64,000 nucleotides of DNA, taken from a bacterium (lineage in GTDB: Bacteria; SAR324; XYD2-FULL-50-16). Shown one piece after another: positions 8,139 to 64,000 of this stretch. A program made the translations under genes and the position numbers. Below the pieces are notes generated by a model that ran no database searches, was not told the DNA's origin, and saw only the letters and a list, made by a program, of their open reading frames with translations. Position 1 is the first letter of the stretch; each line of letters opens with the position of its first letter. Location: NCBI GenBank assembly GCA_024275165.1, contig JAJRZQ010000006.1, positions 1-64,000 on the forward strand, written 5' to 3'.

Positions 8139-9047
8139 CTAAGGAGCCTCTCTCTGATCTAGGCGCAACAGGTAAAGCCATAAGGTTTCACCAACCCCCT
8201 GTAGGCTTCGCGCCGAGCATTGATCGGGCAAATCCTTTTGGGTATGGAAAGCGGGGTAATCAAAATCAATCAGCACCACAGCGGGAACCCCTTGACGGTT
8301 CAAGGCGCTGTGGTCGTCATAAATCTAATATTTGGGTTCTTTCAAAAACCCGGGATGTACCGACGCGCCGATCTCCCACAATTCCTTCACCGCCCAGGGG
8401 GCTGCTTCCAAACTGAAATGGTCGGGGTGCAGTTGCAAATCCCGATCACAAATCAAATCTGGAACGAGCGCCAAAAAAGGCTTTCCCAAGGGATAAAAAC
8501 GGCCCAACTCCTGAGCAAAGCGGTAGCTCCCTAAGGGATACCAAGCCCTTTTTTGCTTCGGCTCCCCCTCTTCTCCATCAAAAAAAACCAAATCAACCCC
8601 GATATTCTTTAAAGGATACCGGTTAAAGAGCCGCCCCAACTCCAACAGAGCCGCTACCCCGCTCGCCCCGTCATTGGCGCCGGGCATCGCCGCTCGAGGG
8701 TCAACCGGGTCTTTATCCGCCCAAGCGCGAGTGTCGTAATGACTCCCCAGCAAAACCCGCCTCGTTCGCTCAGGATAAAAGCGATACATGAGGTTATAGA
8801 GCCGGTAACTCTTTCCACTGCCTGCCTTCAAGTCCCAACTCTGAATCACCCATTCCCCCCCCTGGAGTTGGCTTTTAAAATAAGCCCTCGCCTTTTTGTG
8901 TCCCGGGCTGCCCATAACCCGCGGCCCTCCATCCACCAACGCCTGAATATGTCTCAAGGCGTTTTCCCCGGAAAAACGGCCTTCCTTTGCCAGGGCCAAG
9001 CTAGGCAAAAACAAGACCCAAAAAAGGACAACCATAAATCGAGGCAT
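8139..9047 (-). pseudogene. M28 / glutaminyl-peptide cyclotransferase-like enzyme with in-frame TAG
   Basis: The gene starts at ATG 9047 with a signal peptide (LFWVLFLPSLALA). It encodes a zinc-dependent M28-fold enzyme resembling bacterial glutaminyl cyclase: GSHYDTRAW, GANDGASGVA and FFDGEEGE carry metal or catalytic residues. Codon 241 is TAG (8325-8327). The same frame then continues with IYDDHSALNRQGVPAVVL and DFDYPAFHTQKD to a natural TAG at 8139-8141, 302 codons in all. In this family the last zinc-ligand His lies in the WHT/FHT motif, downstream of the internal stop, so the short product should be inactive unless the stop is read through. GAG to TAG would restore Glu. It sits 3 bp after the AGCS symporter gene, as one operon. 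Confidence 0.8.
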
Positions 9048-9050
9048 TTT

Positions 9051-10388
9051 TTAAGCTTTAGAGAAGTGTTCACGCACGAGGCGAAAAACCACGGGGCTGA
9101 GCAGCAGCAAGGCGATGAGGTTGGGAATGGCCATCAGGGCATTGAGGGTATCTGCTAAGAGCCAGATAAACTCAAGCTTAGCCATGGCCCCCAAGGGAAC
9201 CGCAATAACCCAACAAACACGAAAGGGAAGAATGGCAGAGCGCCCCAAGAGGTACTGCACACAGCGCTCACCATAATGACTCCAACCTAAAATCGTGGAA
9301 AAGGCAAATAAGACCAACCCCAAGGCAACCAGTTGCCCCCCCCAAAAGGGAAATAATTGGTTGAACGCCGCTGCCGACAAGCCGGCACCCGTTACCCCGC
9401 TCGTCCACAACCCACTGAGCAAAATCACCAAACCAGTAATCGTACAAATCAATAGGGTATCAATCAAGGTTCCCAGCATGGCAACCAGCCCCTGCTCAAC
9501 GGGACTACCAACCGCGGCAGAGGCATGGGCGATGGGGGCACTGCCCAAACCGGCCTCATTGGAAAAAACCCCTCTCGCCACCCCAAAACGCAGCGCAAGC
9601 CAGAGGCTCGAACCGGCAAAGCCGCCCACCGCCGCATGGGGGGTAAAGGCATGGGTAAAAATCAAAGCAAATACCTCGGGCAACTTAGAAGCTTCCAAAA
9701 CAATCAAGCTTAAGCCGCCCACAAAATAAAGCAAGGCCATGACAGGCACCAAGCGGCCCGCGACCTCGCCGATGCGCTGAATCCCCCCCAAAAGCACTAA
9801 AGCGACCAACCCCCCCATGACCCAACCCGAAACCAGGGGGGAAAGATCATAACGACTCGCCAAAACATGCGCGACCGAATTGGATTGAACCATATTCCCA
9901 ATCCCAAAACCGGCAAGGGCGCCGCAAAAGGCGAATACCCCCCCGAGCCAAGCCCATTTAGGGCCTAAGCCGTTGCGGATATAATACATGGGGCCGCCTA
10001 CATGCAGCCCGGCCTTGTCGGTTTCCCGATAATGCACCGCCAGCGCCGCTTCGGCGAATTTAGTCGCCATACCCACCAAAGCGGTGCACCACATCCAAAA
10101 CAAAGCACCGGGCCCCCCCAAAAAAATGGCGGTAGCCACTCCAGCAATATTTCCGGTGCCTACGGTCGCGGCTAAGGCGGTCATCAAGGCATTAAAGGGG
10201 GTGATGTCGCCCACTCCTTTTTTTTCTCGTCCCGCAAACAAAAGGCGAAAGCCCGCGCGGATCCGCAGGAGGGGCAGCAGTTTCAGCCCCGCCATGAGAT
10301 AAAGCCCCGTCCCCCCAATCAAGAGCAACATCAAAGGCCCCCATAACAGACCATTGACCGCTGTCAACCCAGATTGAATCTGCTCCAT
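9051..10388 (-). CDS. AGCS-family amino-acid:cation symporter
   Basis: A 445-residue integral membrane protein with about eleven hydrophobic segments. It carries the marks of the alanine/glycine:cation symporter family: ATVGTGNIAGVATAI near residue 75, GGPGALFWMW near 92, the HVGGPMYYI block near 130, and GVFSNEAGLGSAPIAHA near 275. These carriers import alanine, glycine or related amino acids with Na+ or H+ across the inner membrane. Length matches the family. The M28/QC-like gene follows 3 bp downstream, suggesting joint expression of an exported peptide-processing enzyme with an amino-acid importer. Confidence 0.93.
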   Translation of the reverse strand: MEQIQSGLTAVNGLLWGPLMLLLIGGTGLYLMAGLKLLPLLRIRAGFRLLFAGREKKGVGDITPFNALMTALAATVGTGNIAGVATAIFLGGPGALFWMWCTALVGMATKFAEAALAVHYRETDKAGLHVGGPMYYIRNGLGPKWAWLGGVFAFCGALAGFGIGNMVQSNSVAHVLASRYDLSPLVSGWVMGGLVALVLLGGIQRIGEVAGRLVPVMALLYFVGGLSLIVLEASKLPEVFALIFTHAFTPHAAVGGFAGSSLWLALRFGVARGVFSNEAGLGSAPIAHASAAVGSPVEQGLVAMLGTLIDTLLICTITGLVILLSGLWTSGVTGAGLSAAAFNQLFPFWGGQLVALGLVLFAFSTILGWSHYGERCVQYLLGRSAILPFRVCWVIAVPLGAMAKLEFIWLLADTLNALMAIPNLIALLLLSPVVFRLVREHFSKA

Positions 10389-11016
10389 GCTTCTCCTTAA
10401 AATTCAGTGAACCTCTTTTCCAAACCAGGTCGCTTTTTCATTTCTAATGATTCAGCCTCATTTGCGCAAGGCTCTAGCTCCAAGCAAAACCCAAGACCCC
10501 TACAATCTTAACGGCGCCTAAGCTTGTTCTTACGCAAACTAACCTAAGCTAGGCGCAGCCTACAGCCCGCTGCCGCAACCGGCGGGGCATCAGCGCCCCC
10601 GCAATTTAAACATGCTCCGCGGGCTGGGGCTGAAAGCCCCAGACCCCAATGCTTTTTTACATTGGAAATTATAATAGGAAACTCTGAAAAACGCGGAGTT
10701 TCCCAGCAAGGCAGGGATGCCTTGCCAAATCAAAAAGCGGAACTTATTGATTCGCGTTGGGATTGTGGATTTCATTCCCAACCGAAAAAACGGAAAAACT
10801 TGACGCGCCCCCAGGGCTATAATCAGCCCGAAGGGCACAAACCTACCGCTTGAACAAGCGGTAGGCAAGGAGTTTTTCAGAGGTTCCTTTACACGCCGGA
10901 TTAATAACGAAAATATAGAGGGACAGGCAAGGAGCAAGAAGACCCCCCCCGAAAAAACAGCGCGCTGTGCCGGTAAAAGCTTCGGCAAGACCAAAAAACG
11001 CGTTCAAACAACCAAC
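10389..11016. other. Long gene-free stretch with hairpins and element copy 3
   Basis: This 628-bp gap separates two minus-strand genes. It holds a GC-rich tract (10555-10620), a perfect hairpin CTGGGGC-TGAAA-GCCCCAG at 10624-10642, a second hairpin CCAATG...CATTGG at 10646-10665, and element copy 3 at 10677-10887. The rest (10888-11016) shows nothing I can name. The short open frames here lie inside the repeated element and are not genes. No clear U-tract terminator was found. Confidence 0.6.
10677..10887 (+). mobile_element. MITE-like 210-bp element, copy 3
   Basis: A 211-bp copy in the same orientation as copy 2, with terminal repeats GGAAACTCTGAAAAAC and the inward-reading GGAACCTCTGAAAAAC. 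All internal hairpins are present, including GCAAGGCA-GGGA-TGCCTTGC and CCTACCGCTTG-AA-CAAGCGGTAGG. Scattered substitutions distinguish it from copy 2. The flanks (AATA and TTTA) show no target duplication. It sits in a long intergenic gap directly after two other short hairpins, so this stretch is repeat-rich. Confidence 0.85.
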
Positions 11017-12522
11017 TCAAGGCCCTACGGGGGTCGGTTTTTCACCTTTCAAATCGTTTTGTGAAAGGTTGTTGTCCCACTGGCCATAACGAGAAATCCT
11101 TAACCCCTCTTGCCCTTGAAGAAAAAACAAGGGAGTCGGCTTTTGCCACACCAAGTAATCGGCGAACTCACCGGCAAAGCTTAATTCAACCTTTTGCGTA
11201 AGCTTGCCGCTTGTGGTTCCCAATAAACTACCCAAGGCAATATCGGGCACCGCGAGGCGGAGATCGGTAAAATCAAAATGGCGAACCTCCTCTAAGGAGA
11301 CCGAAACCCCTTGTTCTGCCGTGTTCAACGCCAAATCATAAAGAGGGTTTAAACTCGGTTGATGCAAAGCCAGCACTGGTTTGATCGGGGCTGTTTTTAA
11401 AACTGCGCCCAAGGGCATGGCGTCGATCAAGAAACTCCCCATGCAACGCTGGTCCCCCTCGCAAGCCTCCAAAGAGGCCGACCCCCCCAAGCCATGCCCC
11501 ATGAGAATGATTTTCGACAAATCAAGCTTTTGGGTAAACAGACTGCTGATGCTTCCCTTTTGCAGCTTTTCCAGTTCATCAAAAACAAACCAAATATCAT
11601 TTGTCCGCATTTTGAAGCTCTTGGCCAGTTCGGTCTGCTTACCCCAATACCCAGAGAGTAACTTTTTCTTTTTTACGGCTCCTTTCACGGCCCGCAGCTT
11701 TTTCAAAGGGACATTGGCTAAGGATTCGCTCACCACCATTGCCCAGGTTTGGGCAAATCCGGTGCGTTCCCCCTTGGGCATTCCGGCATAAAGCGCCTCA
11801 TAGGGGTGAGCGATACTAACAACCAGATATCCTCGGCTGGCAAACTCCATAAAAAGTTGCGTGTTTTGGGAGCTGACCGAGCCGATTTCATGGCTGAACA
11901 CAATCAGGGGCAATAGCTCCAGAGTATCGGCCAGGCCCGCGTTGGCCACGGCACCCGTATCAATCAAACGCAGATGATTTAAATACCATGGGGGATCAGA
12001 GGCAAAAGGCAGGTTCGGCATGCCCGTGCTGTCGTCGCTCCTAGGGTACCATAGAGTCAGGTATAAAGCTCTCGGTTCCTGAGGTGCCCCATAAATTGCG
12101 TTTGTTCTCTCCAGATCAACCACCTTCAGCCAACTGACCCCCACAAGAAACTTCCCCGAAGGCGCGGGCAGTCGAAACACGGGGAATAAAAAAGGCGGCA
12201 AGGCGGCAAGGGCGATGAGCGAAAATACCGCAACGCTCCAACTGACTCGGCGCAGCTTTACATTCACGCCCGTAGCGGCACGAACCAAATAAAACCTCTT
12301 TTGAGTCAAGCGATAGAGCGTGCCTAAAACCGCTAAAGCAATAAAAAAGTAGACCGGCAGCATTTGCCAGCGCCAGCCCTCAAAAAACCAATGCGCCCCC
12401 AGCAAGGCCAATAAGATAAGCAGAGTCACCCCGCCGCGGCGGCGGTGCCCCTTGCCTGCGTAAATCACCGTCCAGGCCTGCCAAACAAGCAACAGAATTA
12501 AAAGAATTTCAAATAATCTCAT
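11017..12522 (-). CDS. Membrane-anchored alpha/beta-hydrolase (PAF-acetylhydrolase-like) without catalytic Ser
   Basis: A 501-residue protein. The first 125 residues contain about four membrane segments, and the rest resembles the platelet-activating-factor acetylhydrolase/dienelactone hydrolase-like alpha/beta fold: LYLTLWYPRSDDSTG, PLIVFSHEIGS (oxyanion region) and YLVVSIAHPYE. The nucleophile elbow, normally GHSxGG, reads MGHGLGGSAS (codons GGC instead of AGC), so the expected catalytic Ser is Gly. Either the enzyme is inactive, or the next Ser has taken over, or the protein has a non-enzymatic role. A possible acid and His (DAMPLG, VRHFDFTD) remain. It is a single-gene unit upstream of the repeat-rich gap. 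Confidence 0.75.
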   Translation of the reverse strand: MRLFEILLILLLVWQAWTVIYAGKGHRRRGGVTLLILLALLGAHWFFEGWRWQMLPVYFFIALAVLGTLYRLTQKRFYLVRAATGVNVKLRRVSWSVAVFSLIALAALPPFLFPVFRLPAPSGKFLVGVSWLKVVDLERTNAIYGAPQEPRALYLTLWYPRSDDSTGMPNLPFASDPPWYLNHLRLIDTGAVANAGLADTLELLPLIVFSHEIGSVSSQNTQLFMEFASRGYLVVSIAHPYEALYAGMPKGERTGFAQTWAMVVSESLANVPLKKLRAVKGAVKKKKLLSGYWGKQTELAKSFKMRTNDIWFVFDELEKLQKGSISSLFTQKLDLSKIILMGHGLGGSASLEACEGDQRCMGSFLIDAMPLGAVLKTAPIKPVLALHQPSLNPLYDLALNTAEQGVSVSLEEVRHFDFTDLRLAVPDIALGSLLGTTSGKLTQKVELSFAGEFADYLVWQKPTPLFFLQGQEGLRISRYGQWDNNLSQNDLKGEKPTPVGP

Positions 12523-12551
12523 GTGATTTTACAGGCTTAAAAGAAAAATGA

Positions 12552-12580
12552 TTGACAAAAAATAATTTTTACGCTAAATC
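12552..12580 (+). promoter_or_regulatory. Candidate sigma70-type promoter
   Basis: TTGACA at 12552-12557, a 17-bp AT-rich spacer and TAAATC at 12575-12580. The -35 box is perfect and the -10 is weak (3 of 6). It lies in the AT-rich divergent gap between the membrane hydrolase and the bacteriohemerythrin genes. It would give a leader of about 170 bases for the latter. Confidence 0.3.
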
Positions 12581-12613
12581 TAACAATTAATTTTCATATA
12601 CTGCGATAGTCCA

Positions 12614-12627
12614 TTGTATATATACAA
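12614..12627. promoter_or_regulatory. Perfect palindrome TTGTATATATACAA, candidate operator
   Basis: A 14-bp perfect inverted repeat with half-sites TTGTA and TACAA, 133-146 bases before the chosen hemerythrin start. The half-site pattern is like those of dimeric regulators of the CRP/FNR type (TTGAT-N4-ATCAA), but not identical. Its site between two divergent genes fits an operator. The protein that binds is unknown. Confidence 0.3.
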
Positions 12628-12759
12628 GAATCAGTTTATTTTAAGCCCCCGCCCCGAATAAAATCTACAACTGTAGCTTGTTTCTTAGCTTTGCATTCGC
12701 TATGCTGGCTCAACATTGAGCTTAAGACCATTCAACCTAAAAATACCCCTAAAGATACA

Positions 12760-13170
12760 ATGGCCCACTTGATCTGGACAGATGACCTCGCAATCGGCAT
12801 CGACTCCATTGACGACCAGCACATGGTCCTCTTCAACTTAATTGACCAACTCCAAGACGCGATGAGCCGCGGCGAATCGCGTTCTATCCTCCAGGATATC
12901 TTTCGCGGACTCATCGACTACACAGAAAAGCATTTTCAGTTTGAAGAAGATATCTTTAAAAAAATCAACTATCCTGAAACCGAAGCCCATTTAGAAAAAC
13001 ACCGCCAGTTCATCGCCAACATGGAAGACCTACGCAGTCAGTTCCAAGAAAACACCAACTTCATGATCGGGGTGGATGTGATGAAGTTTTTAACCGACTG
13101 GCTGGTGACCCATATTCAAGGGACAGATCGCCAATATATCCAGTTCTTTAAATCAAATGGAATTACCTAA
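12760..13170 (+). CDS. Bacteriohemerythrin
   Basis: A 136-residue non-heme di-iron O2-binding protein of the hemerythrin family. The start at 12760 (MAHLIWTDDLAIGI) matches family N-termini; an upstream in-frame ATG at 12691 would add 23 unlikely residues. Iron ligands expected for the fold are visible: the His in DDQHMVLF, His and Glu in EKHFQFEE, the two His of HLEKHRQF, and the His and Asp in VTHIQGTDRQY. Such proteins carry or sense oxygen in the cytoplasm of motile, often microaerophilic bacteria. The adjacent response regulators fit oxygen-linked behaviour, but that link is inferred. Confidence 0.93.
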   Translation: MAHLIWTDDLAIGIDSIDDQHMVLFNLIDQLQDAMSRGESRSILQDIFRGLIDYTEKHFQFEEDIFKKINYPETEAHLEKHRQFIANMEDLRSQFQENTNFMIGVDVMKFLTDWLVTHIQGTDRQYIQFFKSNGIT

Positions 13171-13317
13171 AATCTCGGGATACCCAACCCCAACCCTCTA
13201 ATCGCGATTAGTCTGTTCGCGACCGCCAGAACGAGTCTTTCACAGGACTCCTTTTCCAAACCGAGGAGTTCACCTAAAACCAGCTGACGGCTCCCCCTCT
13301 ACTTCAAGCCAACTCCA

Positions 13318-13965
13318 CTAGCTTAAATCCACGATTCCCCGCTGAATAGCGTAGCGGGTCAAGCCAGCGATATTGTGTAAATCCAGCTTCTTCATTAGAT
13401 TTTCTCGATGAGCCCCAATGGTCTTTGCGCTAATTTTCAACTTATTGGCGATCTCCTTGCTGGAGTAGCCCTCGGCAATGAGTTTGAGTACTTCCCGCTC
13501 GCGAGAGGTGAGGTTGTCCGAAAAGGCGGTAATGATCGGCTTATTGCTCACCACAAAATTCTCAATCACGCTGCCCGTCAAGGCTTCGGAAACATAATAG
13601 CGATTGTGCAAGGCCGAATCAATCGCCAGACTCAACTCCTGGGGCTTGCAATTTTTTACCAAAAAAGCCAAGGCCCCGGCGCTAAACATGTCTTGAATCA
13701 TATTCGCCTGGGTGTGGCTGGTTAAGGCAATGACCTTCGCCTCGGGGTTTTCGCTCAAGATCGCTTTCGTGGCTTCAATCCCATTCATCACCGGCATGAC
13801 AATATCCATAAAAACCACCTCAGGGTGCAGCTTTGCGGAAAACTCCACGGCTTCCTTCCCGTTGGAGGCCGAGCCAATGACCTTCATCCCCTCAATCTTT
13901 TCGGCCATTTTAGAAAGTGTTTCTCTTGTAATTTCATGATCTTCTGCAAATAAAATTGTTGTCAT
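13318..13965 (-). CDS. NarL/FixJ-type response regulator
   Basis: A 215-residue two-component regulator. Residues 1-120 are a receiver domain with acidic residues in FAEDHE, the phosphoacceptor Asp in VVFMDIVMPVMNG (about residue 54), ALTSH and the Lys in FLVKN. Residues about 148-210 are a LuxR-type helix-turn-helix with LTSREREVLKLIAEG, SSKEIANKL and KTIGAHRENLMKKL. It should bind DNA when phosphorylated. It lies 24 bp downstream of the cheY-like gene in the same direction, so both may answer to the same kinase. No cognate kinase is adjacent; the hybrid kinase at 24 kb is one candidate. Confidence 0.93.
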   Translation of the reverse strand: MTTILFAEDHEITRETLSKMAEKIEGMKVIGSASNGKEAVEFSAKLHPEVVFMDIVMPVMNGIEATKAILSENPEAKVIALTSHTQANMIQDMFSAGALAFLVKNCKPQELSLAIDSALHNRYYVSEALTGSVIENFVVSNKPIITAFSDNLTSREREVLKLIAEGYSSKEIANKLKISAKTIGAHRENLMKKLDLHNIAGLTRYAIQRGIVDLS

Positions 13966-13989
13966 AATTCATTTAGGAAAGAGTGCTCA

Positions 13990-14373
13990 TTAAAGTTCGT
14001 CAAAAATCTTGTGCATTTTTTCTCGCAGGCTATCCACATCAATCGGCTTCACGATATAGTTATTCACCCCTGCGCGAATCGCCTCAATAATATTATCTTG
14101 CAACCCTTCTGCGGTAACCATCATCACCGGAATATGCTGTAACGCTTCCTCGGAGCGAATTTTTCGCAACAATTCGATCCCATTCATATTCGGCATTTCC
14201 CAATCGGTAATGACAAAGCCAACCCCCCCTTGGTGCAATTTTTCCAAGGCTTCGACCCCATCGGCCGCTTCTTCGATATGAGCGCAATTCAATTGAGTCA
14301 AACAGGTTTTAACCACCTTTCTCATAACTTGAAAGTCATCGACCACTAAAATTTTCATCTCTGGATTAAACAT
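13990..14373 (-). CDS. CheY-like single-domain response regulator
   Basis: A 127-residue stand-alone receiver. It has the acidic pair in ILVVDDF, phosphoacceptor Asp in FVITDWEMPNMNG (about residue 59), Thr/Ala in MVTAEG and the conserved Lys in YIVKPID. The FQVMRKVVKTCL helix closely resembles chemotaxis CheY, which when phosphorylated binds the flagellar switch. It has no output domain. It precedes the NarL-type regulator in a probable two-gene unit. A FliN/FliM-like pair lies 7 kb away, which agrees with a role in flagellar switching. Confidence 0.92.
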   Translation of the reverse strand: MFNPEMKILVVDDFQVMRKVVKTCLTQLNCAHIEEAADGVEALEKLHQGGVGFVITDWEMPNMNGIELLRKIRSEEALQHIPVMMVTAEGLQDNIIEAIRAGVNNYIVKPIDVDSLREKMHKIFDEL

Positions 14374-14427
14374 TTCACCCCTTTGGCTGCTCGAATTCTA
14401 GCGCTACCTTACATAAAAAGTAAAAAA

Positions 14428-15402
14428 TCAACTGATCGGGCAATAACTCCAGCGTTTCCCCTGGCATTCTTCAATGTGCCTTCGCAAGGCCTCGTTCACC
14501 GCGATATGCAACGGGCTCAACTCCTCTAAAGAGGTCAGTTTGCAACGCCCTTGCGTCACCAAATCCTGCACGATCAAATTCGTCACCACCCCTTTGCTCG
14601 GAGGCCTCAAATCAAAGGGTTCGGCTTTAAAGTCCGTCGCCGCTTGGCTCCAGATTACCTGTCCTTCATCCTCCTTAATGATGAAACGGTAATTTCTATC
14701 CTGCACCTGCACCACCAAGGGGCTGTTTCCCTCATATTCCAAAAGCTGAAAGCGACTTTTATTGGCTCCCTTGCCGGTCAGGGAGCCTTTCAACTCCATG
14801 CTGCCCCGTCGATAATTGTAGTTCACCGTCTTGTTCATCTGGCTTGCGTCTAAATCCCAGGAAAAACTTCCCTGCAAGCGGGAAAACAAATCCGCGAAAT
14901 CAATCGCTCTCGCCGCCACCCCCCAATTACCGCCATGGGCTTGAAACTCGATGGTCGCCTGGGGCTTAAAAAACTTTCGCACCTCGTCATAAATCGGATA
15001 ATACAGCCTCGGATTCATCACCCAGGTTTGGATCTGATGCCGGGCCAAAAGGGGCAACATCTCGATAAAATCCTTCTTGGCCTGAAAAACCACCGGGTCG
15101 ATCAAGAGGTGCTTGACCAAGGTTTGGCGCATCAACTGTTCTACAATCCCTCGCTTTGCGTCCGCGTGGGTCGCGATGAGCGCCACATCAATGGTATCGT
15201 CAAGGTCAACCATGCTGTGAAAAAGCCGTACCTCTTTGACCTTCCCCTCAAAGGAGAACTGCTTATAACAAGCGCTGGCAGAAAAAAGGGCCTGATCCGA
15301 GGGATCCACTACAGAAATCCGCAAAGGCTCTTGTATCTTCATCAAACTTTCTAAGTGGCGAACCCCTTGATTCCCCGCGCCAAATAACACGACATGATGC
15401 AT
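14428..15402 (-). CDS. Gfo/Idh/MocA-type oxidoreductase
   Basis: A 324-residue protein with an N-terminal Rossmann fold (VVLFGAGNQGVRHLESL, residues 4-20, then VVDPSD at the end of beta-2). It has the LIATHADAKRGIVEQLM segment typical of the Gfo/Idh/MocA family, followed by a C-terminal alpha/beta domain. Members are NAD(P)-dependent dehydrogenases acting on sugars or other polyols, often in surface polysaccharide synthesis. The usual EKP motif after beta-5 is replaced by LIDPVV, so the family assignment is sound but activity is uncertain. It stands alone. Its 5' end is 19 bp from copy 4 of the repeated element, which therefore lies in its upstream region. Confidence 0.75.
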   Translation of the reverse strand: MHHVVLFGAGNQGVRHLESLMKIQEPLRISVVDPSDQALFSASACYKQFSFEGKVKEVRLFHSMVDLDDTIDVALIATHADAKRGIVEQLMRQTLVKHLLIDPVVFQAKKDFIEMLPLLARHQIQTWVMNPRLYYPIYDEVRKFFKPQATIEFQAHGGNWGVAARAIDFADLFSRLQGSFSWDLDASQMNKTVNYNYRRGSMELKGSLTGKGANKSRFQLLEYEGNSPLVVQVQDRNYRFIIKEDEGQVIWSQAATDFKAEPFDLRPPSKGVVTNLIVQDLVTQGRCKLTSLEELSPLHIAVNEALRRHIEECQGKRWSYCPIS

Positions 15403-15421
15403 TCCACCTTCCTACACTAAG

Positions 15422-15631: not shown

Positions 15632-15657
15632 TAAGGTAAATACCCTATTCTTTTCCG

Positions 15658-15891: not shown

Positions 15892-16008
15892 AAAAATTAA
15901 CGATAAAATAAGTTCAGGTTATCTTTAATTTTTAAAAGGATAAAGACTCACTGGATATTTTCTTTTTTTCCTCTTAAGATTCAATCAAAGTCTGCAAGGA
16001 GAAAAAAA

Positions 16009-16398: not shown

Positions 16399-16401
16399 AT
16401 T

Positions 16402-26755: not shown

Positions 26756-27562
26756 ATGGTAAACGACTTTTCCCACCCTCATGCCAACTCCCTTCCCCCC
26801 TTAGGAGAAGAGGGCGAAAAAAAACCCCGCGGCCCCTGGCGCATTGCCCAGGGGTTGACCGGCATCTTGGCTTTCCTGCTGATCCTTGGTGGCTTGGGGC
26901 TCTTGCCTTTGTATCTCACCTCCGCGCCGCGGTTTTTTCTGGTGGAGGGGAACGAGGTTTTAAAAGCGAAGGAAATCAAAAATCAAGTCCTCTTTGACCC
27001 CGAACAGAGTTGGTTCAGTTTAGACGCCTATATTCTTAGCTCCCAACTTCTCTCCCATCCTTGGATCAAGTCGGCGACAATCCATAAAACCCCAAGCCTC
27101 GGCCTCGTGGCCCAAATTGAGGAATATCGACCCATCGCCTATTACCGTGCGGGCACCCGGCTGTTTTTATTGAGTTCAAACCATAAGCTTTTACCGATGC
27201 GCCAAGGGAAAACCCCCTGGGACTTACCCGTACTCAGTGATCGGGCCAACCCCAACTTGCAAGCGGGCATGCGACCCGACTTCTTTCATTTGGAACGGGG
27301 TTTAAGACTGCTCCATTTACTCAAAAACTTTGCGCCCCTGCCCCTTTCGGCCATCAGCGAGATTCGCCTGCAAGACCCTTTAGACATCCAAGTCATTACG
27401 GTTATGGGGGGCAAACTGATCCACTTTGGTGACCGCGACTGGCCCAAAAAACTAACCCGCCTCAAAAAGGCTTTGCCACAAATCGCAAAACGCTTTAAGC
27501 AAATTGAACAGATTGATCTTAGAAACTTCCAAGGAGTGGCGATAAAGCTTACAGCCAGATGA
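26756..27562 (+). CDS. ftsQ: FtsQ-type cell division protein
   Basis: A 268-residue bitopic membrane protein. It has a short cytoplasmic N-terminus (residues 1-37), one membrane segment (GILAFLLILGGLGLLPLYL) and then a POTRA domain starting FFLVEGNEVLKAKEIKNQV. The FtsQ beta-domain follows (YRPIAYYRAGTRLFLLSSN, ending in FQGVAIKL). FtsQ links early and late divisome proteins in the periplasm. Unusually it is not in a dcw cluster but overlaps argD by ATGA (27559-27562). It is distant from the E. coli type, so a general POTRA-containing FtsQ-like role is the safe claim. Confidence 0.8.
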   Translation: MVNDFSHPHANSLPPLGEEGEKKPRGPWRIAQGLTGILAFLLILGGLGLLPLYLTSAPRFFLVEGNEVLKAKEIKNQVLFDPEQSWFSLDAYILSSQLLSHPWIKSATIHKTPSLGLVAQIEEYRPIAYYRAGTRLFLLSSNHKLLPMRQGKTPWDLPVLSDRANPNLQAGMRPDFFHLERGLRLLHLLKNFAPLPLSAISEIRLQDPLDIQVITVMGGKLIHFGDRDWPKKLTRLKKALPQIAKRFKQIEQIDLRNFQGVAIKLTAR

Positions 27563-28776
27563 CCAACCAAGAACTGCTTGCGCGATATAAACAAGTCATG
27601 GTGCCCAACTATGCCCCCCTCCCTTGCGTTCCCACCCGCGGCAAGGGGGTTTGGCTTTGGGACGCCGAAGATAAAAAATACCTCGACTTGACTGGCGGAA
27701 TCGCCGTTACCGGCTTAGGTCATGGACACCCGGAAGTTTTACGGGCGCTCCGGGAACAGGCCGATCAGGTCTGGCATTTGAGCAATTATTTTGCCAATGT
27801 GCCGGTCATCGAATTGGCGTAGCTTTTCTGCCAACTCACCTTTGCCCAGCGATGCTTTTTTGCCAATTCCGGCGCAGAGGTGAACGAAGCGGCCTTAAAG
27901 CTTGCCCGACGCTACGCCATTGAAACCAATCAGCACGAAAAGCATAAGATCATCGCCTTCCACAAGGCCTTTCACGGGCGAACCCTCTTTTCGGTCACCG
28001 CCGGGGGAACCGAGGCATACAAAACCAACTTTGGCCCTCTTCCCGCCCAGTTAGCGCATACAACCCACAACAACCTGGAGGCGCTGAGTCAAATCATGGG
28101 GAAAGATAGCTGCGCGGTGATCCTAGAACCCATTATGGGCGAAGGGGGCATCCACCAAATGGACCTTGAATTTGCCCAAGGGGTGAGGGCGCTTTGCGAC
28201 CAACACCAAGCCCTGCTGATTTTTGACGAAGTGCAAACGGGCATGGGCCGCACCGGCGACCTCTTTTGTTACCAGGGTTTAGGGGTAACCCCCGATATAT
28301 TAACCACTGCCAAGGCCTTAGGGAACGGGTTTCCCATTGGGGCCATGCTGACAACCGAAAAAATCGCCCAGGTTTTTCAACCCGGGGTTCACGGCACGAC
28401 TTTTGGGGGCAACCCCTTGGCCGCGGCAGTGGCCAAAAAGGTCTTGGAACTGGTGAGCGCTCCGGAAACCTTGGCAGGGGTTCGGGCCAGGGGGGAGCAA
28501 TTCGTTCAGGGGCTCAATGACTTAAACCAAAAATTTGACCTCTTTTGCGAGGTACGGGGGCGGGGGCTGCTCATCGGCGCCCAGTTAAAAGGCCCCCACC
28601 AGCAAAAAGCCAAAGACATCTTACTGCAAGCCTCGCAAAAGGGGCTTTTGATCCTGCAAGCGGGCCCGGATGTCTTGCGCTTCGCTCCCAGCTTGTTCAT
28701 CACCGAAACCGAGGTGGAACAAGCGTTGAACCTGCTCCAACAAACCTTTACCTCCTATCTGCATGAACACCGCTAA
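27559..28776 (+). pseudogene. argD: Acetylornithine aminotransferase interrupted by one TAG
   Basis: The 406-codon frame matches acetylornithine/succinyl-diaminopimelate aminotransferase over its whole length: LDLTGGIAVTGLGHGHPEV, FANSGAEVNEAALKLARR, FHGRTLFS, IFDEVQTGMGRTG, PLP Lys252 in TAKALGNGFP and GTTFGGNPL. The only fault is TAG at codon 88 (27820-27822), between VIELA and LFCQLTFAQR. Homologues usually carry E, K, R or Q at that place; GAG to TAG gives Glu. Both sides keep perfect frame and motifs. Arginine synthesis depends on this enzyme, so loss would matter unless a paralogue exists. It overlaps ftsQ upstream and prfB downstream. Confidence 0.85.
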
Positions 28777-29909
28777 TTTCGCCTTCGATCAGGCCAAACG
28801 ACTCCTGCAAAACCGCAGGGAGCGCCTCGCCGCTGTCGAAGGCTTTCTTTGACAAGACAAAACAAACCGCGCGACTTGAAGAGTTGGAGTTTCAAACCCA
28901 ACGAAGCTCATTTTGGTCCCAAGCTCAAGAAAAACAAACCCTGGTTTTAAAAGAGATCGCGGGGATCAAAGAGATTCTAGAGCGCATCGCCAAGGCAGAC
29001 CAAATCTTAGAGAACATGACGACCGCTTTAGAGCTTTTAGAAACGGAAGAAGACCCTGAACTCATCCAAGAATGGCAACGCTTGGACAAAGAAGGCGAGA
29101 AGCTCTTACGCCTCTTTGAGCTCAACCACCTGCTCGGTGCCCCTCACGACAAGGCAGGGGCGATTTTAATGATCAATTCGGGGGCAGGGGGCACCGAATC
29201 CATGGACTGGGCAGGCATGCTGCTGCGCATGTATACCCGCTGGGCAGAGGCCCAAGGGGCGAAAGTCACCCTCTTAGACCTGCAACCGGGAGAAGAGGCC
29301 GGGATTAAGTCCGCCACCTTGTCGATTGCGCTGGATTACGCCTATGGGAAACTCAAAACCGAGATGGGAGTGCATCGCTTGGTGCGCATCTCCCCCTTTG
29401 ACGCCAATCGACGAAGGCATACCAGCTTTGCTTCGGTCGCGGTTTACCCCGATTTAGACGAAGAAATCGAAATTGAGATTAAAGAATCCGACCTCCGCGT
29501 TGATACCTATCGCGCTAGCGGGGCCGGGGGCCAACATATCAATAAAACCGACTCGGCGATTCGCATCACCCACCAACCCACCGGAATTGTGGTGCAATGC
29601 CAAAATGAACGCAGCCAGCACAAAAACCGCGCCACGGCCATGAAGCTCTTAAAGGCCGCTTTATATCAGTTGGAAGAGCAAAAACAAGAGGACGAACGAG
29701 CCCAAGAAGAAGCGCAAAAGTCCGATATCGCCTGGGGCAGCCAAATCCGCTCTTATGTTTTGCACCCCTACCAACTCTGTAAGGATTACCGCTCCGATTG
29801 GGAAAGCGGCAATGTCGCCGCGGTACTGGACGGGAATTTAGACGACTTGATCGAAGCGAACCTAGCCGCCGCGGCAGAAGGAGAAAAGGGAAAATCCGCC
29901 CAGACTTAA
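28763..29909 (+). CDS. prfB: Peptide chain release factor 2 with programmed +1 frameshift
   Basis: RF2 ends translation at UGA and UAA. The gene starts at ATG 28763 (inside the argD end), reads 29 codons to CTT-TGA-C at 28847-28853, then shifts +1 and continues to TAA at 29907-29909. Product about 381 residues. The frame-0 part ends in RLAAVEGFL and the +1 part begins [14 protein letters not shown], aligning with E. coli RF2 RGYL/DYDAKKERLEE. The SPF anticodon-like tripeptide ([11 protein letters not shown]) and the catalytic GGQ in [12 protein letters not shown] are present. Autoregulation: high RF2 favours stopping at UGA, low RF2 favours the shift. Its stop overlaps the convergent lipoprotein gene. 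Confidence 0.95.
28847..28853 (+). promoter_or_regulatory. RF2 programmed frameshift site CTTTGAC
   Basis: The slippery CTT codon is followed by in-frame TGA and then C, the weak-termination context typical of prfB. A purine stretch GAAGG sits upstream in the spot of the internal Shine-Dalgarno element that stimulates shifting, though it is weaker than E. coli AGGGGG. Confidence 0.92.
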
Positions 29910-46647: not shown

Positions 46648-46651
46648 AATA

Positions 46652-50155: not shown

Positions 50156-50157
50156 CC

Positions 50158-51539: not shown

Positions 51540-51540
51540 C

Positions 51541-57005: not shown

Positions 57006-57504
57006 ACAACCTTTGGTAGGCCCCCCAAATCGCCTCCAAGTGAGAATTCATCGAATGATCACTCTGGAATACCTCCAAGCGCGCTCTTGCCTCTGGGCTC
57101 TGCCGCACTAAATCCTCCACCGCCTGGAGAGGGATCACTTTATCTTGACGACCCGCTAAAATTTCAATGGGAATCCGGCCCGGCAACCGAAGCCCCGCCA
57201 AAAGAGCCCGCTCCCTTTCATTCCCCATCAAAGGATCGTAAAACCCCACCGCCGGGGCGATGAGCAACAGCCCTTTGACCTTGCTCGGAACCTCTAAAGC
57301 ATACAATAAGGCGGTCAAACCACCGAGGCTGGAACCGATTAAAAGACTCGGCTCCTGGATCAATCCCCGCACCAGTTCCAAACGCTGGAATAAAGAAGGA
57401 GGCAAAAGAGGAACCAGCACCTCTGGCGCCCGCTCTTGAAAAAACTTTGCCTTCACTCCCTGCGGGCTACCCTGCAAACCGTGAAAAAAATAGACTGGGA
57501 TCAT
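56989..57504 (-). CDS. Small alpha/beta-hydrolase (esterase, YqiA/UPF0227-like)
   Basis: A 171-residue alpha/beta-hydrolase: oxyanion-hole motif YFFHGLQGSP (residues 5-14), nucleophile elbow IGSSLGGLTALL with Ser about 59, Asp in AGRQDKVIP and His in SDHSMNSH. Catalytic triad complete. Size and motifs resemble the YqiA-type esterases. It overlaps the phosphoesterase gene downstream. Confidence 0.85.
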   Translation of the reverse strand: MIPVYFFHGLQGSPQGVKAKFFQERAPEVLVPLLPPSLFQRLELVRGLIQEPSLLIGSSLGGLTALLYALEVPSKVKGLLLIAPAVGFYDPLMGNERERALLAGLRLPGRIPIEILAGRQDKVIPLQAVEDLVRQSPEARARLEVFQSDHSMNSHLEAIWGAYQRLCDGLE

Positions 57505-57564
57505 GACGCTTTACGGTTTAGGCTAAATCTGGAAGGTTGAACAAGTCTTAAATATAAAGCCATT

Positions 57565-58719
57565 ATGCAAGATTTTACCTTCATCAAGCAAGCCTTGAAA
57601 GACGCCGCCGCCCGGGGCCGACAGCGAGAACTGCGCCCCTTAACCCCCCTAAAGGGTTCTAGGGTACGCTGGCAGGGCAAAGAGTTGGTGAATTTAAGTT
57701 CCAACGATTACCTGGGTCTGGCAGAACACCCCCTCTTAGCCCAAAGGGCGGCGGAATACGCCGCCCAATACGGTGCCGGCTCCAAGGCAAGCCGTTTGGT
57801 CTGCGCCGAGATTCCCCCCTTTGCCGCCTTAGAGGCCAAATTGGCGAATTTAAAGGGGCAAGAGGCGGCCTTGATCTTCAATTCCGGCTTTCAGGCCAAT
57901 TGCAGCCTACCGGGGTTGTTTGCGCAAAAAGGCGATTTGATTCTCTGTGATCGGCTCATCCACAACAGCTTGATCCAAGGAAGCCTGTTGAGCGGCGCCC
58001 GCATGCGCCGATTTGCCCACAATGATTTGGCGGACTTGGAAAACAAATTAGCAGAGGCCCAAACAAAAGGCTATGGCCGCCTTTTAGTCCTCACCGAGTC
58101 GGTATTCAGCATGGACGGCGACCGGGCCGACCTGGAAGGAATCAAAAACCTCACCGATCAAGCCAACGCCCTTTTATTGGTCGATGAAGCCCATGCCACC
58201 GGGGTCTTGGGGCCACAGGGCATGGGGCTGGCAACGGGGTTGGGGATTGATTTGGTCATGGGCACCTTTGGCAAAGGGCTCGGCGGCTTTGGGGCTTACT
58301 TCGCCTGCCCCAAAATCGTGCGGGACTACGCCCTCAACTTCGCCCCCGGATTCATCTATACCACCGCCCTGCCTCCCTCGGTCTTGGGCGCCATGGACGC
58401 CGCCTTGGAGCTGGCCCCGCAAATGGGGGAAAAACGCAAGAAACTGCACGCTCTGGCAACGAACTTCCGCAAGGAGGCGAGTCGCATGGGCTACGACTGC
58501 CTGAACTCTTCTACCCAAATCGTCCCCCTGTGGATGGGCAGCGAAGAACGGGCCATCGCCTGCATGAACCACCTCTTGCGACAAGGCTTTTTGGCCGTCG
58601 CCATCCGCCCCCCCACGGTGGCACCGGGCCAATCTCGCTTGCGCCTCGCCTTCAACGCCGCCTTGGAAGAAAAAGACATTCACCGCTTACTAGGGGCCTT
58701 GCATGATTTTAAAGGCTGA
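57565..58719 (+). CDS. bioF: 8-amino-7-oxononanoate synthase
   Basis: A 384-residue PLP enzyme that condenses pimeloyl thioester with alanine, the first ring-building step of biotin synthesis. Seen: NLSSNDYLGLAEHP, GSKASRLVCAEIPPFAALE, VFSMDGDRADL, VDEAHATGVLG, PLP Lys237 in GTFGKGLGGFGAY and RPPTVAPGQSRLRLAF. First of five overlapping bio genes. No BirA-type operator is obvious upstream. Confidence 0.96.
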   Translation: MQDFTFIKQALKDAAARGRQRELRPLTPLKGSRVRWQGKELVNLSSNDYLGLAEHPLLAQRAAEYAAQYGAGSKASRLVCAEIPPFAALEAKLANLKGQEAALIFNSGFQANCSLPGLFAQKGDLILCDRLIHNSLIQGSLLSGARMRRFAHNDLADLENKLAEAQTKGYGRLLVLTESVFSMDGDRADLEGIKNLTDQANALLLVDEAHATGVLGPQGMGLATGLGIDLVMGTFGKGLGGFGAYFACPKIVRDYALNFAPGFIYTTALPPSVLGAMDAALELAPQMGEKRKKLHALATNFRKEASRMGYDCLNSSTQIVPLWMGSEERAIACMNHLLRQGFLAVAIRPPTVAPGQSRLRLAFNAALEEKDIHRLLGALHDFKG

Positions 58720-59326
58720 TTGGACCTTCATCCACGGCTGGGGCTTGGGCGGGTTTTTTTTCCATCCCCTGCAAGCCCTGCTGCCCCAAGCCAAGCTATG
58801 GGAACGAGGCTATTTCGGCCCCGCTACCCGCCGCCCCATCCCCCCAAGGAGTTGGGTCATGGCCCACTCCTTAGGGCTCCACTGGTTGGGGCCCGAAGAC
58901 GCAAATAACCTAGAGGGGTTGGTGATCCTCGCCGGCTTTGCCGATTTTCTACCCGGGCGGGCCCAAGTCAAGGCCATGGGGCGCAAGCTGCGCCAAGACC
59001 CCCAAGCCCTACTGCGAGACTTCTACCGGCAACTCTTCGCCCCCGCCCCCTGCCCCCTCACCCCGCCGAGGGTGACGGATCAGGCCTTGCTCGCCCAGGA
59101 CTTAGAAAGCCTTTTATCTCTCTCTTTACCCTTAGAGAGCTTGGCCCCCATCCCGCGCGTCTACATCCTCCAAGGAGAGGCCGACCACATCAGCCCCTTA
59201 AGCCAAGCCAAAGCCCTAGCGACCATACTGCCCCAAGCCAAACTAAAGGTCTTTTCCCAAGGGGGCCACGCCTTTGCCCAGGTAAACCCCCAGGCCTGCC
59301 TGGATTGGTTGCGAGAGGTGGCATGA
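58703..59326 (+). CDS. bioH: BioH-like pimeloyl-ACP methyl ester esterase
   Basis: A 207-residue alpha/beta-hydrolase inside the bio operon. Nucleophile Ser in VMAHSLGLHWLG, an Asp in LQGEADHISPLS, and His in FSQGGHAFAQVNP. By context and motifs it frees pimeloyl-ACP from its methyl ester before BioF acts, as BioH or BioG do. It overlaps bioF by 17 bp and bioC by 4 bp. Short length (207) is closer to BioG; the symbol is by role. Confidence 0.82.
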   Translation: MILKADWTFIHGWGLGGFFFHPLQALLPQAKLWERGYFGPATRRPIPPRSWVMAHSLGLHWLGPEDANNLEGLVILAGFADFLPGRAQVKAMGRKLRQDPQALLRDFYRQLFAPAPCPLTPPRVTDQALLAQDLESLLSLSLPLESLAPIPRVYILQGEADHISPLSQAKALATILPQAKLKVFSQGGHAFAQVNPQACLDWLREVA

Positions 59327-60075
59327 GCGTGAGCCAAAACATTTGCCGCAATTTCAGCCGCAAGGTAGACAGCTACGATCAGGCCGCAGAGGTTCAAGCC
59401 AGAGCGGCCAAGCAACTGGCCAAAAGGCTGAGCCCAAAACTCCCACCGGGCCCAATCTTAGAAATAGGCTGCGGGACCGGGCTCTTGAGCCAACACTTGG
59501 CTCAACTCTACCCAGAGCGGGAAATCCACTTCACCGACCTTTCCCCCGCCATGGTGGAAGCGACCCAACAACGCCTCGGCAAGCGGGCCAGCTCCTATTT
59601 CTACTGCTTAAACGGGGAGGAATTACAACAAAAAGCCCAATTTTCGGGAATTTTTTCCAGCTTTACCCTCCAGTGGTTCACCGACTTAAAAAAGGGCCTA
59701 AAGGGCATGCAACAAGCGCTGCTTCCAGGGGGGCACTTAGGCTTAGCCCTTCAAGGGGAGGGAAGCTACAGGGAATGGCGTTCCGCCTGTAAGAGCCTGG
59801 GCCTGCCTTTTGCGGGCAACCCCCTGCCCTCGCTGGATCAAATCGCCCTTTTGCTGGACCAATGGACTTGGCATTTTCACCGCACCCAATGGGAGAACCA
59901 CTACCCCCGAGCAATTGATTTTTTTAACAACATCAAACAACTTGGAGCCAACACCCCCTTGAGCGGAAAGCGGCTGACCTTCGGCCAATTCAAAGCCCTG
60001 CTCCACGAATTGGACCAAAACCGACCCTGCGCCTTCAGCACCGAGGTCTTATTGATCGAGGCAATCAAACCATGA
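59323..60075 (+). CDS. bioC: Malonyl-ACP O-methyltransferase
   Basis: A 250-residue SAM-dependent methyltransferase that methylates malonyl-ACP to start pimelate synthesis. RKVDSYDQAAEVQARAAKQL near the N-terminus is a BioC trait. SAM motif LEIGCGTGLLSQHLA, then FTDLSPAMVEATQQRL, and SSFTLQWFTDL agree. Start 59323 is by the 4-bp overlap with bioH. Its end overlaps bioD by 4 bp. Confidence 0.93.
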   Translation: MSVSQNICRNFSRKVDSYDQAAEVQARAAKQLAKRLSPKLPPGPILEIGCGTGLLSQHLAQLYPEREIHFTDLSPAMVEATQQRLGKRASSYFYCLNGEELQQKAQFSGIFSSFTLQWFTDLKKGLKGMQQALLPGGHLGLALQGEGSYREWRSACKSLGLPFAGNPLPSLDQIALLLDQWTWHFHRTQWENHYPRAIDFFNNIKQLGANTPLSGKRLTFGQFKALLHELDQNRPCAFSTEVLLIEAIKP

Positions 60076-60698
60076 GCGACTTGACTTTCCCGAAAGCCTT
60101 TTGGGTCTTGGGCACCGATACGGGAATCGGCAAGACCCTGACCAGCGCCCTTTTAGCCTTGAAACTAAAGGCCCACTACTGGAAACCCATCCAAACCGGT
60201 TACAAAACCGAGCGAGACAGCCTTTTTGTCCGCCAAGCCACGGGCCTGCCGACCCGTCATTTTTTCCCGGAACGCTTCTTGCTCAAAGAACCCCTCTCCC
60301 CCTACCAAGCGGCGAAACTGGAAGGACTACGCATTGATTTGGAGGATTTTTCCCCGCCCCCAGGCGAGTATAAACATTTAATCATCGAGGCCGCCGGAGG
60401 GGTCATGGTACCCCTCAATGAAAGAGACCTCTTTATCGACCTCATCCAAGGTTTCGGCCTGCCCACCCTCTTGGTGGCCAAAAGCGGGCTGGGAACCCTC
60501 AACCACAGTCTGCTCACCATCGAAGCCTTACGCAACCGGGGTATCGAGATCTTAGGCTTGGTACTCAACGGCCCTAAAAACAGGGCAAACAAAAAAACCT
60601 TGGAACTCTTTTCCGGGCTGCCCGTATTGTTTGAAATCGAGCCCCTGCCCGGCCTGACCCCTAAAAACCTCCAACAAGAAATCGACCGATGGGAATAA
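60072..60698 (+). CDS. bioD: Dethiobiotin synthetase
   Basis: A 208-residue ATP-dependent enzyme that closes the ureido ring to give dethiobiotin. P-loop VLGTDTGIGKTLTSALLAL, YWKPIQTGYK, EPLSPYQAAKLEG and IEAAGGVMVPLN are family signatures. Length fits. The end overlaps bioA by 10 bp. bioB, which makes biotin from dethiobiotin, is not in the window. Confidence 0.95.
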   Translation: MSDLTFPKAFWVLGTDTGIGKTLTSALLALKLKAHYWKPIQTGYKTERDSLFVRQATGLPTRHFFPERFLLKEPLSPYQAAKLEGLRIDLEDFSPPPGEYKHLIIEAAGGVMVPLNERDLFIDLIQGFGLPTLLVAKSGLGTLNHSLLTIEALRNRGIEILGLVLNGPKNRANKKTLELFSGLPVLFEIEPLPGLTPKNLQQEIDRWE

Positions 60699-61975
60699 AA
60701 ATCGTACCCGGAAGGGTTTGGATGCCCTACAGCCAAATGAAGGAGGCGAACCCTCTCGCGATCACCAGGGGAAAGGGGGTCTGGCTGGAAACCGAAGGAG
60801 GGGGCAAACTCCTTGACGCTATTTCCAGTTGGTGGGTCAACCTGCACGGCCACGCCCGCCCCGAAATCGCCGAGGCCATCTACCAGCAGGCCTTGAAACT
60901 CTAACAGGTCATCGCGGCGGGATACACCCACCAGCCGGCCCAGGAATTGGCCGACCGCCTCATCGCCTTGACCCCAAAACCCCTCCACCACCTCTTTTAC
61001 AGCGACAACGGGAGTACAGCGGTAGAGGTGGGCCTGAAAATGGCCTTTCAGTTTTGGCGCAACCAAAAGGCCAAGGGAAGAAACCGCTTTTTGGCCCTCC
61101 AGGGGGCCTATCACGGCGATACCTTAGGAACCATGTCAATCGGTGAACGGGGGTTGTTCAACGACCTCTTCGGCGAACTGCTCTTTCAAGCCAAGCTCCT
61201 GCCCCTACCCTACAGCTATTGGGAAAAAAAAGACCTCGAAGCGGAAGAAGACCGCCTGCTGGCCCAAACAGCCCAACACTTAGCCCAAGAAGGAGAAAAC
61301 TACGCCGCCTTGATCGTAGAACCCCTGATTCAAGGGGCCGCGGGAATGAAGCTTTACAGCGCCCGCTATTTAAAGGGACTGGTGGAGTTAGTTCGGAGCC
61401 AGGGCATCTTGGTGATCTTTGACGAGGTGATGACCGGCTTTGGCCGCACCGGGGAATGGTTCGCCGCCGACAAGGCCGGAGTCGCGCCCGATATTCTCTG
61501 CGTTTCCAAGGGGATCACCGGGGGAACCATGCCCCTAGCCGCTACCTTGTGCGATGATTTGGTCTATGAGGCCTTTTTGGGAGACGAGCCCAGCTTAACC
61601 CTGTACCATGGGCATTCCTACACGGCCAACCCCTTAGGATGCGCGGCGGGCCTGGCCAGTTTGAGCATCATGGAAAAAGAGAGCGAAGCCAACTTCCGCC
61701 ATTTAGAGGGGTGGCACACCGAGGAATTGCGCAGTTTGAAAAATAACCCCCGAATCGAGCATTTACGCACCTTAGGCTGCATGGCGGCCATGGAAATCCG
61801 CCCGCAAAAAAAGGCAAGATATACAACCCGCAAGGAACTCATGCACGCCTTTGCCGAAAAAGGGATACTACTGCGGCCCTTGGGCAGCTCGCTGTATGTG
61901 TTGCCGCCCTACTGCATCACCAGAGACGAGTTAGCCCTAGTCTATCAGGTGATTCAAGAGGTTTTAAACGCCTAG
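60689..61975 (+). pseudogene. bioA: Adenosylmethionine-8-amino-7-oxononanoate aminotransferase interrupted by one TAA
   Basis: A 429-codon frame with full BioA similarity: RVWMPYSQMKEANPLAI, LDAISSWWVNLHGHARPEI, SDNGSTAVEVGLKMAFQFW, GAYHGDTLGTMS, DEVMTGFGRTG, PLP Lys274 in CVSKGITGGTMPLA and GHSYTANPLGCAA. Codon 72 is TAA (60902-60904), between AIYQQALKL and QVIAAGYTHQ. Relatives commonly have Glu there (KLEQV), so GAA to TAA is the simplest cause. No other defect is seen. If real, biotin synthesis stops here unless a second bioA exists. Confidence 0.87.
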
Positions 61976-62667
61976 ACCCCCTCCCGCGCCATCTCGATCA
62001 ACAACAGATGCGCCCCGGGCTCGGTTCGCAGGTCGATTTCTTCTGCGATGATCTCTGCGGCGTCGCCATGGCGCATTGCAGCGCCATTTAAAAGCGCCTG
62101 CCCCTCAATGAGTTTCAAGTAGGCCTGCCGCCCTGCCGCCAAGGGGAAGCGGATGGATTTACCGGCGGTCAGCTCCGTGACATAGAGGTTCACATCTTGA
62201 CAGACGGCAATTTCTTCTCGCGGCCCCACCAAATGCAACCATTGATTGAGACGCTCCGACTCTAAAAAGCGTTTTGATCCATAATTCGGGGTTAAATCCT
62301 TTTGCTCGGGAAAAATCCAAATTTGCAAAAATCGACAGGTCTCCTCTCCCTCGTTCATCTCCGAATGAGTGATCCCCGTTCCGGCAGAGAGATATTGAAT
62401 ATCACCGCGGCCTAGAGTTTCTTTATTTTGCATACTGTCTTGATGGGTCAACCCCCCGGCGACCACATAAGAAATAATTTCCATATCTTGATGCGGATGT
62501 CGCCCAAACCCTTGGCGCGGCTGGACCAGATCATCATTTAAAACCCGCAGAACACCAAAATTCAAATTATCTGGATTTCGATATTCGGCAAAAGAAAAAT
62601 GAAACCTGCTTTTCAACCAACCTAAATCGCTGACAAAAAGATCGTTAAAGCGAAGGATGCGAATCAT
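61972..62667 (-). CDS. Pirin-family protein
   Basis: A 231-residue bicupin of the pirin family (YhhW-like). FGRHPHQDMEIISYVVAGGLTHQDS holds the metal-binding His residues (HPHxDMEI and H near GLTHQDS), and AGTGITHSEMNE the final ligands; the start at 62667 is supported by AAAGGA. Members bind Fe or Cu and some show quercetinase activity; the role in bacteria is mostly unclear. It ends overlapping the convergent bioA stop. Confidence 0.92.
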   Translation of the reverse strand: MIRILRFNDLFVSDLGWLKSRFHFSFAEYRNPDNLNFGVLRVLNDDLVQPRQGFGRHPHQDMEIISYVVAGGLTHQDSMQNKETLGRGDIQYLSAGTGITHSEMNEGEETCRFLQIWIFPEQKDLTPNYGSKRFLESERLNQWLHLVGPREEIAVCQDVNLYVTELTAGKSIRFPLAAGRQAYLKLIEGQALLNGAAMRHGDAAEIIAEEIDLRTEPGAHLLLIEMAREGV

Positions 62668-62780
62668 GTTGTTCCTTTTGCTTGAAATTGAAAAGCGTCG
62701 CCCTGCCCCCTGGCCGCCCTTCCAAAGGCAACCAGGGGCGCCTTGTGGGGTTCCCTCTTTCCTGCCCAAGCTAGGCGGGT

Positions 62781-63008
62781 TTAAGTTTGTTTATGCGCCC
62801 CATCGCAATAGGGTTTGCCCTTGGATTTTCCACAGCCGCAGGCGTAAATGGTTTTGTCTTCGCTAAATTTTTCCACAAAAGGCTTCCCACCGACGCTTTT
62901 ATGGGTTCCATCACAATAGGGGCCCTTTTTGCTCTCTCCGCAAGCGCATAGATATAAGGTTTCACCGGCTTTCACAGCAATGGAAAAAGGTTCGTTTTGC
63001 CAAGTCAT
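62781..63008 (-). CDS. Tandem CDGSH iron-sulfur protein
   Basis: A 75-residue protein with two CDGSH modules: CACGESKKGPYCDGTH and CGCGKSKGKPYCDGAH. Each has three Cys and one His that bind a 2Fe-2S cluster. Bacterial members are thought to act in redox or iron-sulfur handling. It is upstream of pirin in the same direction (113-bp gap) and divergent from the LysR gene. Confidence 0.92.
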   Translation of the reverse strand: MTWQNEPFSIAVKAGETLYLCACGESKKGPYCDGTHKSVGGKPFVEKFSEDKTIYACGCGKSKGKPYCDGAHKQT

Positions 63009-63157
63009 AATCTCTCCAGGTTAAGATAAAATCGTTCAAACGCATCAAAACGCAAACCTCGCCTTGGCTTGGTTTACCATTCATGTTTACAGGCTAAATG
63101 ATTATTTGATAGATTAATATTATCTTTTTATAAATAACACCATAGTTTTAAACTAAG

Positions 63158-64000
63158 ATGAACCTCGATCAAATTCGTATTTTTGTCACCATTGCCGAAA
63201 CCGGTAGCTTAGGCGCCGCGGCCAAGGCCCTTTTTCGCACCCAGCCCACTTTAAGCGTGGCCTTAAAAAAATTGGAAGAGGCTCTAGGAGTCCAACTCTT
63301 TTCCCGCAAGGCCTACCGCATGAGTCTCACCGCCGCGGGCAAGCAGCTCTTGCGAAAAGCCCAATATCTTTTAGAACAGGCCAGGGAATTTGAAAACTTA
63401 GGCCGCTATTTATCCTCCGGCCATGAGCCGGAGCTTCGGGTCGCCTTTGACCCCTTGATCCCCATCCAACCGATCCTCCATATCTTAAAAACCTTTGAGC
63501 AAAAATACTGTCAAACCCAGCTCACCTTGGTTTAACAATACCTTTCCGGGGGAATCGAAAAACTCCTGCAAGATAAGGTGGATTTAGCCTTCATTGCCTG
63601 GCCGAGAATTCCCCCTCAGTTGTCTCATCTCCTGGTGCTGGAAATCGAGATGAGGATGGTCGTAAGCCCTAAATTTCCTTTAACCCAAAAAAAAGGTCCC
63701 ATTACGCAAAATGAGCTGCGCGCCCAAGCGCAAATCATCATTAAAGACAGCTCGTCTCAACCCACCAAAGATCAATTTAATGTACTCAGCGGGGGCCGCC
63801 ATTGGGATGTTACCGATTTCTGGACAAAAAAAGACATTATCTTAGAGGGAATGGGGTGGGGGGCTTTGCCCCTACATGTGGTTGAAGAGGAGTTGGAACA
63901 AGGTGAGTTGGTCAAGCTTGAGGTTGAAGGGCTACCCCAAAAAATTAGTTTGCCCGCCTATTTGGCGCGAAAAAAGGAAGGACAGCTCGGCCCGGTGGCC
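63158..64000 (+). pseudogene. LysR-type regulator with one in-frame TAA, 3' end off the window
   Basis: The N-terminal winged-helix (MNLDQIRIFVTIAETGSLG and FRTQPTLSVALKKLEEALG) is typical of LysR-type regulators. Codon 126 is TAA (63533-63535), after TQLTLV. The frame continues with QYLSGGIEKLLQDKVDLAFI, AQAQIIIKDSS and HWDVTDFWTKKDIILEGMG to the edge, the usual effector-binding domain. Glu at the stop is plausible (xEQYLSGG), via GAA to TAA. The window ends before the natural stop. It is divergent from CDGSH and pirin genes, its likely targets. Confidence 0.82.

Follow-up and report, generated by a model that had tools for sequence, protein, structure and literature searches.

The in-frame stop codons that interrupt four genes in the window, i.e. 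bases 1-64000 of the 156 kb contig 41, are probably single wrong bases in the draft consensus sequence and part of a genome-wide set of such errors. The genome, that of an uncultured bacterium, is a 2.69 Mb draft in 47 contigs. We infer wrong consensus bases from the scatter of such stops over the genome, from the lack of an all-Glu pattern among the residues aligned to them and from the interruption of the essential gene rpsI. A sequence artefact was one of several explanations offered by a sequence-only reading of the window, and it is the one that is best supported.

Interrupted genes in the window

The four genes (Table 1) belong to the Pfam families M28, class-III aminotransferase (both argD and bioA) and LysR. 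Read through the stop, each frame is full length compared with uninterrupted relatives, and no frameshift was found in the 64 kb window. This is in agreement with the sequence-only reading, which described the genes as free of frameshifts and intact apart from one stop each. argD lacks an interruption in 35 of the 36 matching relatives, the exception being G047, which has one TAA. The matches of bioA in named genomes reach an identity of 47% at most. Four stops in 64 kb were also held to be more than expected, and they are indeed dense compared with the 13 in the remaining 992 kb of the sample, although the associated probability [P(≥4) = 0.011] is biased since the window was chosen for containing the stops.

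A genuine bypass of an in-frame stop occurs in the same window at the CTT TGA of prfB, where the ribosome likewise passes a stop codon. prfB uses a conserved slippery motif together with a frameshift, whereas the four stops described here are without such a motif.

Interior stops across the genome

We screened 1.056 Mb of the genome together with 0.71 and 0.77 Mb of two genomes of the same family (G002 and G004, respectively). Each genome was searched with the proteins of the other two, and the genome of the window was additionally scanned for coding potential. Codon-scored reference proteins were used because shadow reading frames dominated a plain homology screen. The sample contains 17 interior stops, including those of the window: nine TAA, six TAG and two TGA. 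Interruptions are thus present genome-wide, a point on which the sequence-only reading had suggested a count of TAA and TAG. Support from sampled homologues is available for 14 of the 17. No interior stop came out of the identical screen of G002 and G004, in which 353 and 363 kb were covered by homology, and the placement of all 14 homology-supported stops in one genome with none in two relatives has a p value of about 2e-6.

Stops that end one gene while the following gene shares its reading frame were discarded on inspection by eye, among them L045+4682, L175+10879, L052-4300 and L050-15777. An apparent stop in G004 (L253:8468) lies outside the gene. Interior stops outnumber frameshifts, of which there are three in 467 kb. 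Three frameshift-like breaks in conserved genes are all of the -1 type, and one -1 frameshift-like gene carries a biotin-carboxylase-like HPGYGFLSE motif.

Table 1. Interrupted genes and other features, with window positions or locus handles.
Feature	Location	Strand	Observation
M28 peptidase gene	8139..9047	-	In-frame TAG 8327..8325; 240 and 61 codons either side; normal end TAG at 8139
argD (acetylornithine aminotransferase type)	27559..28776	+	In-frame TAG 27820-27822
prfB (release factor 2)	28763..29909	+	Overlaps argD end; normal programmed +1 frameshift at CTT TGA 28847-28852
bioA (class-III aminotransferase)	60695..61975	+	In-frame TAA 60902-60904
lysR-family regulator	63158..64000	+	In-frame TAA 63533-63535; gene continues beyond window end
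rpsI (ribosomal protein S9)	L190:8993-8995 (G000 C30:68993-68995)	+	Interrupted by TAG at the stated position, codon 40 of 128
RadC-domain protein	L190		Interior stop
leuA	L167		Interior stop
Nitrite/sulfite reductase-type gene	L165		Interior stop
leuC	L179		Interior stop
Histidine kinase	L179		Interior stop
Sensor kinase	L193		Interior stop
Sugar-transport permease	L045		Interior stop
Uncharacterised protein	L182		Interior stop
Flagellin	L182		Interior stop
Cytochrome c	L178		Interior stop
Small protein	L203		Interior stop
Aldo-keto reductase	L046		Interior stop
Conserved gene	L173:5177		-1 frameshift-like break
Conserved gene	L186:2438		-1 frameshift-like break
Conserved gene	L048:18288		-1 frameshift-like break
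Coding-looking frame	L199:17142-17612	+	Two successive stops in one frame (181 + 155 + 98 codons); gene ends or broken gene
tRNA-Arg(UCG)	L007:1501-1577		G-A mismatch atop anticodon stem

Residues aligned to the stops

It had been proposed that each stop sits where Glu is possible or common in the family and that one G-to-T change in a Glu codon explains all four. The first proposal stands for two of the genes. The 16 sequences closest to bioA carry either Glu or Asp at the site, and its nearest relatives carry Glu, while the relatives of argD mostly have Glu, Lys or Asp (Gln and others also occur) and the nearest sampled one, that in G004, has Glu encoded by GAG. It fails for lysR, where 24 relatives carry Val, Ile, Ser, Ala, Thr, Phe or Leu and none carries Glu; the Glu that is common in these relatives sits one residue after the stop column, at a position occupied by Gln in the window gene. 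For the M28 peptidase it is unsupported, with Arg in the two nearest relatives (L288 and L289) and a gap in the third (L290). A common origin of all four from Glu codons therefore fails at lysR and lacks support at the M28 site.

Over the genome sample as a whole, the residues aligned to the stops are similarly mixed (Glu, Trp, Ser, Leu, Gln, Arg, Asn and others). The stop in leuC aligns to Trp, that in the sensor kinase to Leu and that in cytochrome c to Ser, such that the genome-wide comparison with relatives suggested earlier yields no all-Glu pattern. At the bioA, argD and rpsI sites and at sites in L182 and L203, Glu is either the best or a frequent residue; together with the kinase site this amounts to 6/14 compared with 18% expected (p = 0.03). 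This enrichment is what would favour UAA and UAG being ambiguous codons that mean Glu in this organism, an interpretation that we regard as highly improbable given the residues found in the relatives of lysR, the M28 peptidase and leuC.

tRNAs, release factors and normal terminators

The decoding apparatus also speaks against such a Glu assignment. tRNA-Glu is present as a single species with anticodon UUC and a normal 5 bp anticodon stem. All 42 tRNA genes of the genome, which is estimated to be 98% complete, have ordinary anticodons and none has CUA, UUA or UCA. The search for a CUA or UUA suppressor that the sequence-only reading had recommended is thus negative. No shortened anticodon stem was found in the tRNAs for Glu, Gln, Lys, Tyr and Trp. 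The sole 4 bp anticodon stem among the tRNAs checked is that of tRNA-Arg(UCG). The PAT and GGQ motifs of RF1 and the SPF and GGQ motifs of RF2 are intact.

The 323 homology-supported genes end in TAA (165), TAG (63) or TGA (95). About 17 in-frame stops occur per Mb, yet TAA and TAG terminate 228/323 (71%) of these genes, which bears out the earlier view that a global change of the code is unlikely. Neither a single residue at the stops, nor a cognate tRNA or short stem, nor avoidance of the terminators or loss of a release factor, as would be expected if UAR encoded Glu, is seen.

The nearest known parallel to a Glu assignment is the system of Blastocrithidia, in which in-frame UAA and UAG likewise occur (PMC12153298), often at expected Glu positions, and UAA is also a terminator. 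Blastocrithidia is, however, a eukaryote with extensive reassignment, whereas here the stops are rare and align to a mixture of residues, and the search for a suppressor tRNA was negative. As noted in a published screen of more than 250 000 genomes (PMC8629427), contamination or pseudogenes with in-frame stops can give rise to apparent stop reassignments.

Mutational spectrum and gene decay

A mutator of the mutY or mutM type was another of the proposed origins. Both genes, the status of which had been named as a check, are full length with their conserved motifs present. Missense differences at conserved positions, of which 67 are toward T:A and 89 the opposite way, show no excess of G:C to T:A in two comparisons. 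The 14 nonsense sites do fit a mild G:C-to-T:A excess (2 delta lnL of 4.8 on 1 df). Neither a mutator nor oxidative damage alone is sufficient, since the Trp of leuC and the Leu of the sensor kinase need other changes. A search for an error motif, G to T before ARC, found nothing, this test being of low power.

Recent gene decay, also among the earlier suggestions, is contradicted by the stop in rpsI, for which no second copy was found in this genome. A cell with only a fragment of S9 should not be viable. Natural decay in bacterial pseudogenes leads to many frameshifts and to multiply damaged genes. The lesions described here, with a single stop per gene and few frameshifts, have the profile of base substitutions and not that of aged pseudogenes, and no aged multi-lesion pseudogene was noted in the genome sample. 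Neither a restriction to dispensable genes nor the frameshifts and aged multi-lesion copies that mark natural pseudogenes characterize this set. The stop in single-copy rpsI together with those in leuA, leuC and the nitrite/sulfite reductase-type gene means that ordinary decay cannot account for all of the interruptions.

The stops could also be real and very recent nonsense mutations, in a decaying or mutator lineage favouring G:C to T:A that has been caught as a snapshot. The likelihood fit mildly favours such a bias, and argD, bioA, leuA and leuC are biosynthetic, such that a nutrient-dependent cell could survive their loss. The expected lethality of rpsI loss, the intact mutY and mutM, the missense differences without a G:C-to-T:A excess, the scarcity of frameshifts and the lack of aged pseudogenes in the sample nevertheless make this explanation unlikely.

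The base following the stop

The base at +4, directly after the stop codon, is C at 11 of the 17 in-frame stops. This compares with 21% at codons that lie a single step away from a stop (p of about 1e-4 for a pattern that was noticed post hoc) and with 57/323 (18%) among the regular terminators (Fisher p = 4e-5). Outside the window the proportion is 8/13 (p = 0.0016). Random consensus errors do not predict this excess, and it stands against our preferred explanation. It could be due to chance, to an undetected error motif or to leaky stops that are tolerated. No matching motif was seen among the missense differences, in a test of little power.

As the excess is unlike simple random error, we keep context-dependent read-through as an alternative. 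The nonsense codons would then be real and tolerated through efficient read-through by near-cognate tRNAs that depends on the following C, without a suppressor tRNA, and full-length biosynthetic proteins and even S9 would still be made from scattered in-frame UAA and UAG codons. Apart from the +4 C itself, the interruption of essential rpsI with no second copy agrees with this, as does the large excess of stops over frameshifts, which is expected if stops alone are tolerated. The ordinary anticodons and stems, the intact motifs of RF1 and RF2, the normal use of TAA and TAG as terminators and the post hoc nature of the pattern all argue against it. Furthermore, a large reporter study in E. coli found that G, not C, at +4 increases read-through (PMC11126739). 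We consider such tolerance improbable, both as an account of these stops and as a property of the bacterium.

Discussion

Errors in the draft consensus remain the likeliest explanation that the sequence data offer, as they would account for the mixed codons, the disregard of essentiality and the rarity of frameshifts. The interruptions are specific to one genome, their codon origin is mixed and they strike genes irrespective of essentiality, among them rpsI, leuA, leuC, argD, bioA, the nitrite/sulfite reductase-type gene, flagellin and kinases. The draft was probably assembled from a metagenome. Most errors in such a consensus would be silent or missense and a few would convert sense codons to stops, leaving genes that appear intact but for one stop. 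With about 17 stops per Mb and roughly 4% of random coding substitutions creating a stop, the error rate would be near 4e-4 per base. At conserved sites, this genome shows no visible surplus of missense differences over the relatives, which is a weak test since no more than a few extra sites would be expected.

Consensus errors that fragment genes are known from draft assemblies. In one such account (Kastor; PMC12007338), apparent premature stops likewise occur in otherwise intact genes of one assembly, core genes included. Long-read errors are usually mostly frameshifts, whereas here stops outnumber frameshifts.

Should the stops be real, they would be an unusual instance of stop read-through on a wide scale in which no suppressor tRNA takes part. 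If they are artefacts, a genome with good quality figures (98% complete, 0.3% contamination) seems to have roughly 2% of its genes broken by single false stops, which calls for caution because false stops of this kind mimic recoding, gene decay and auxotrophy.
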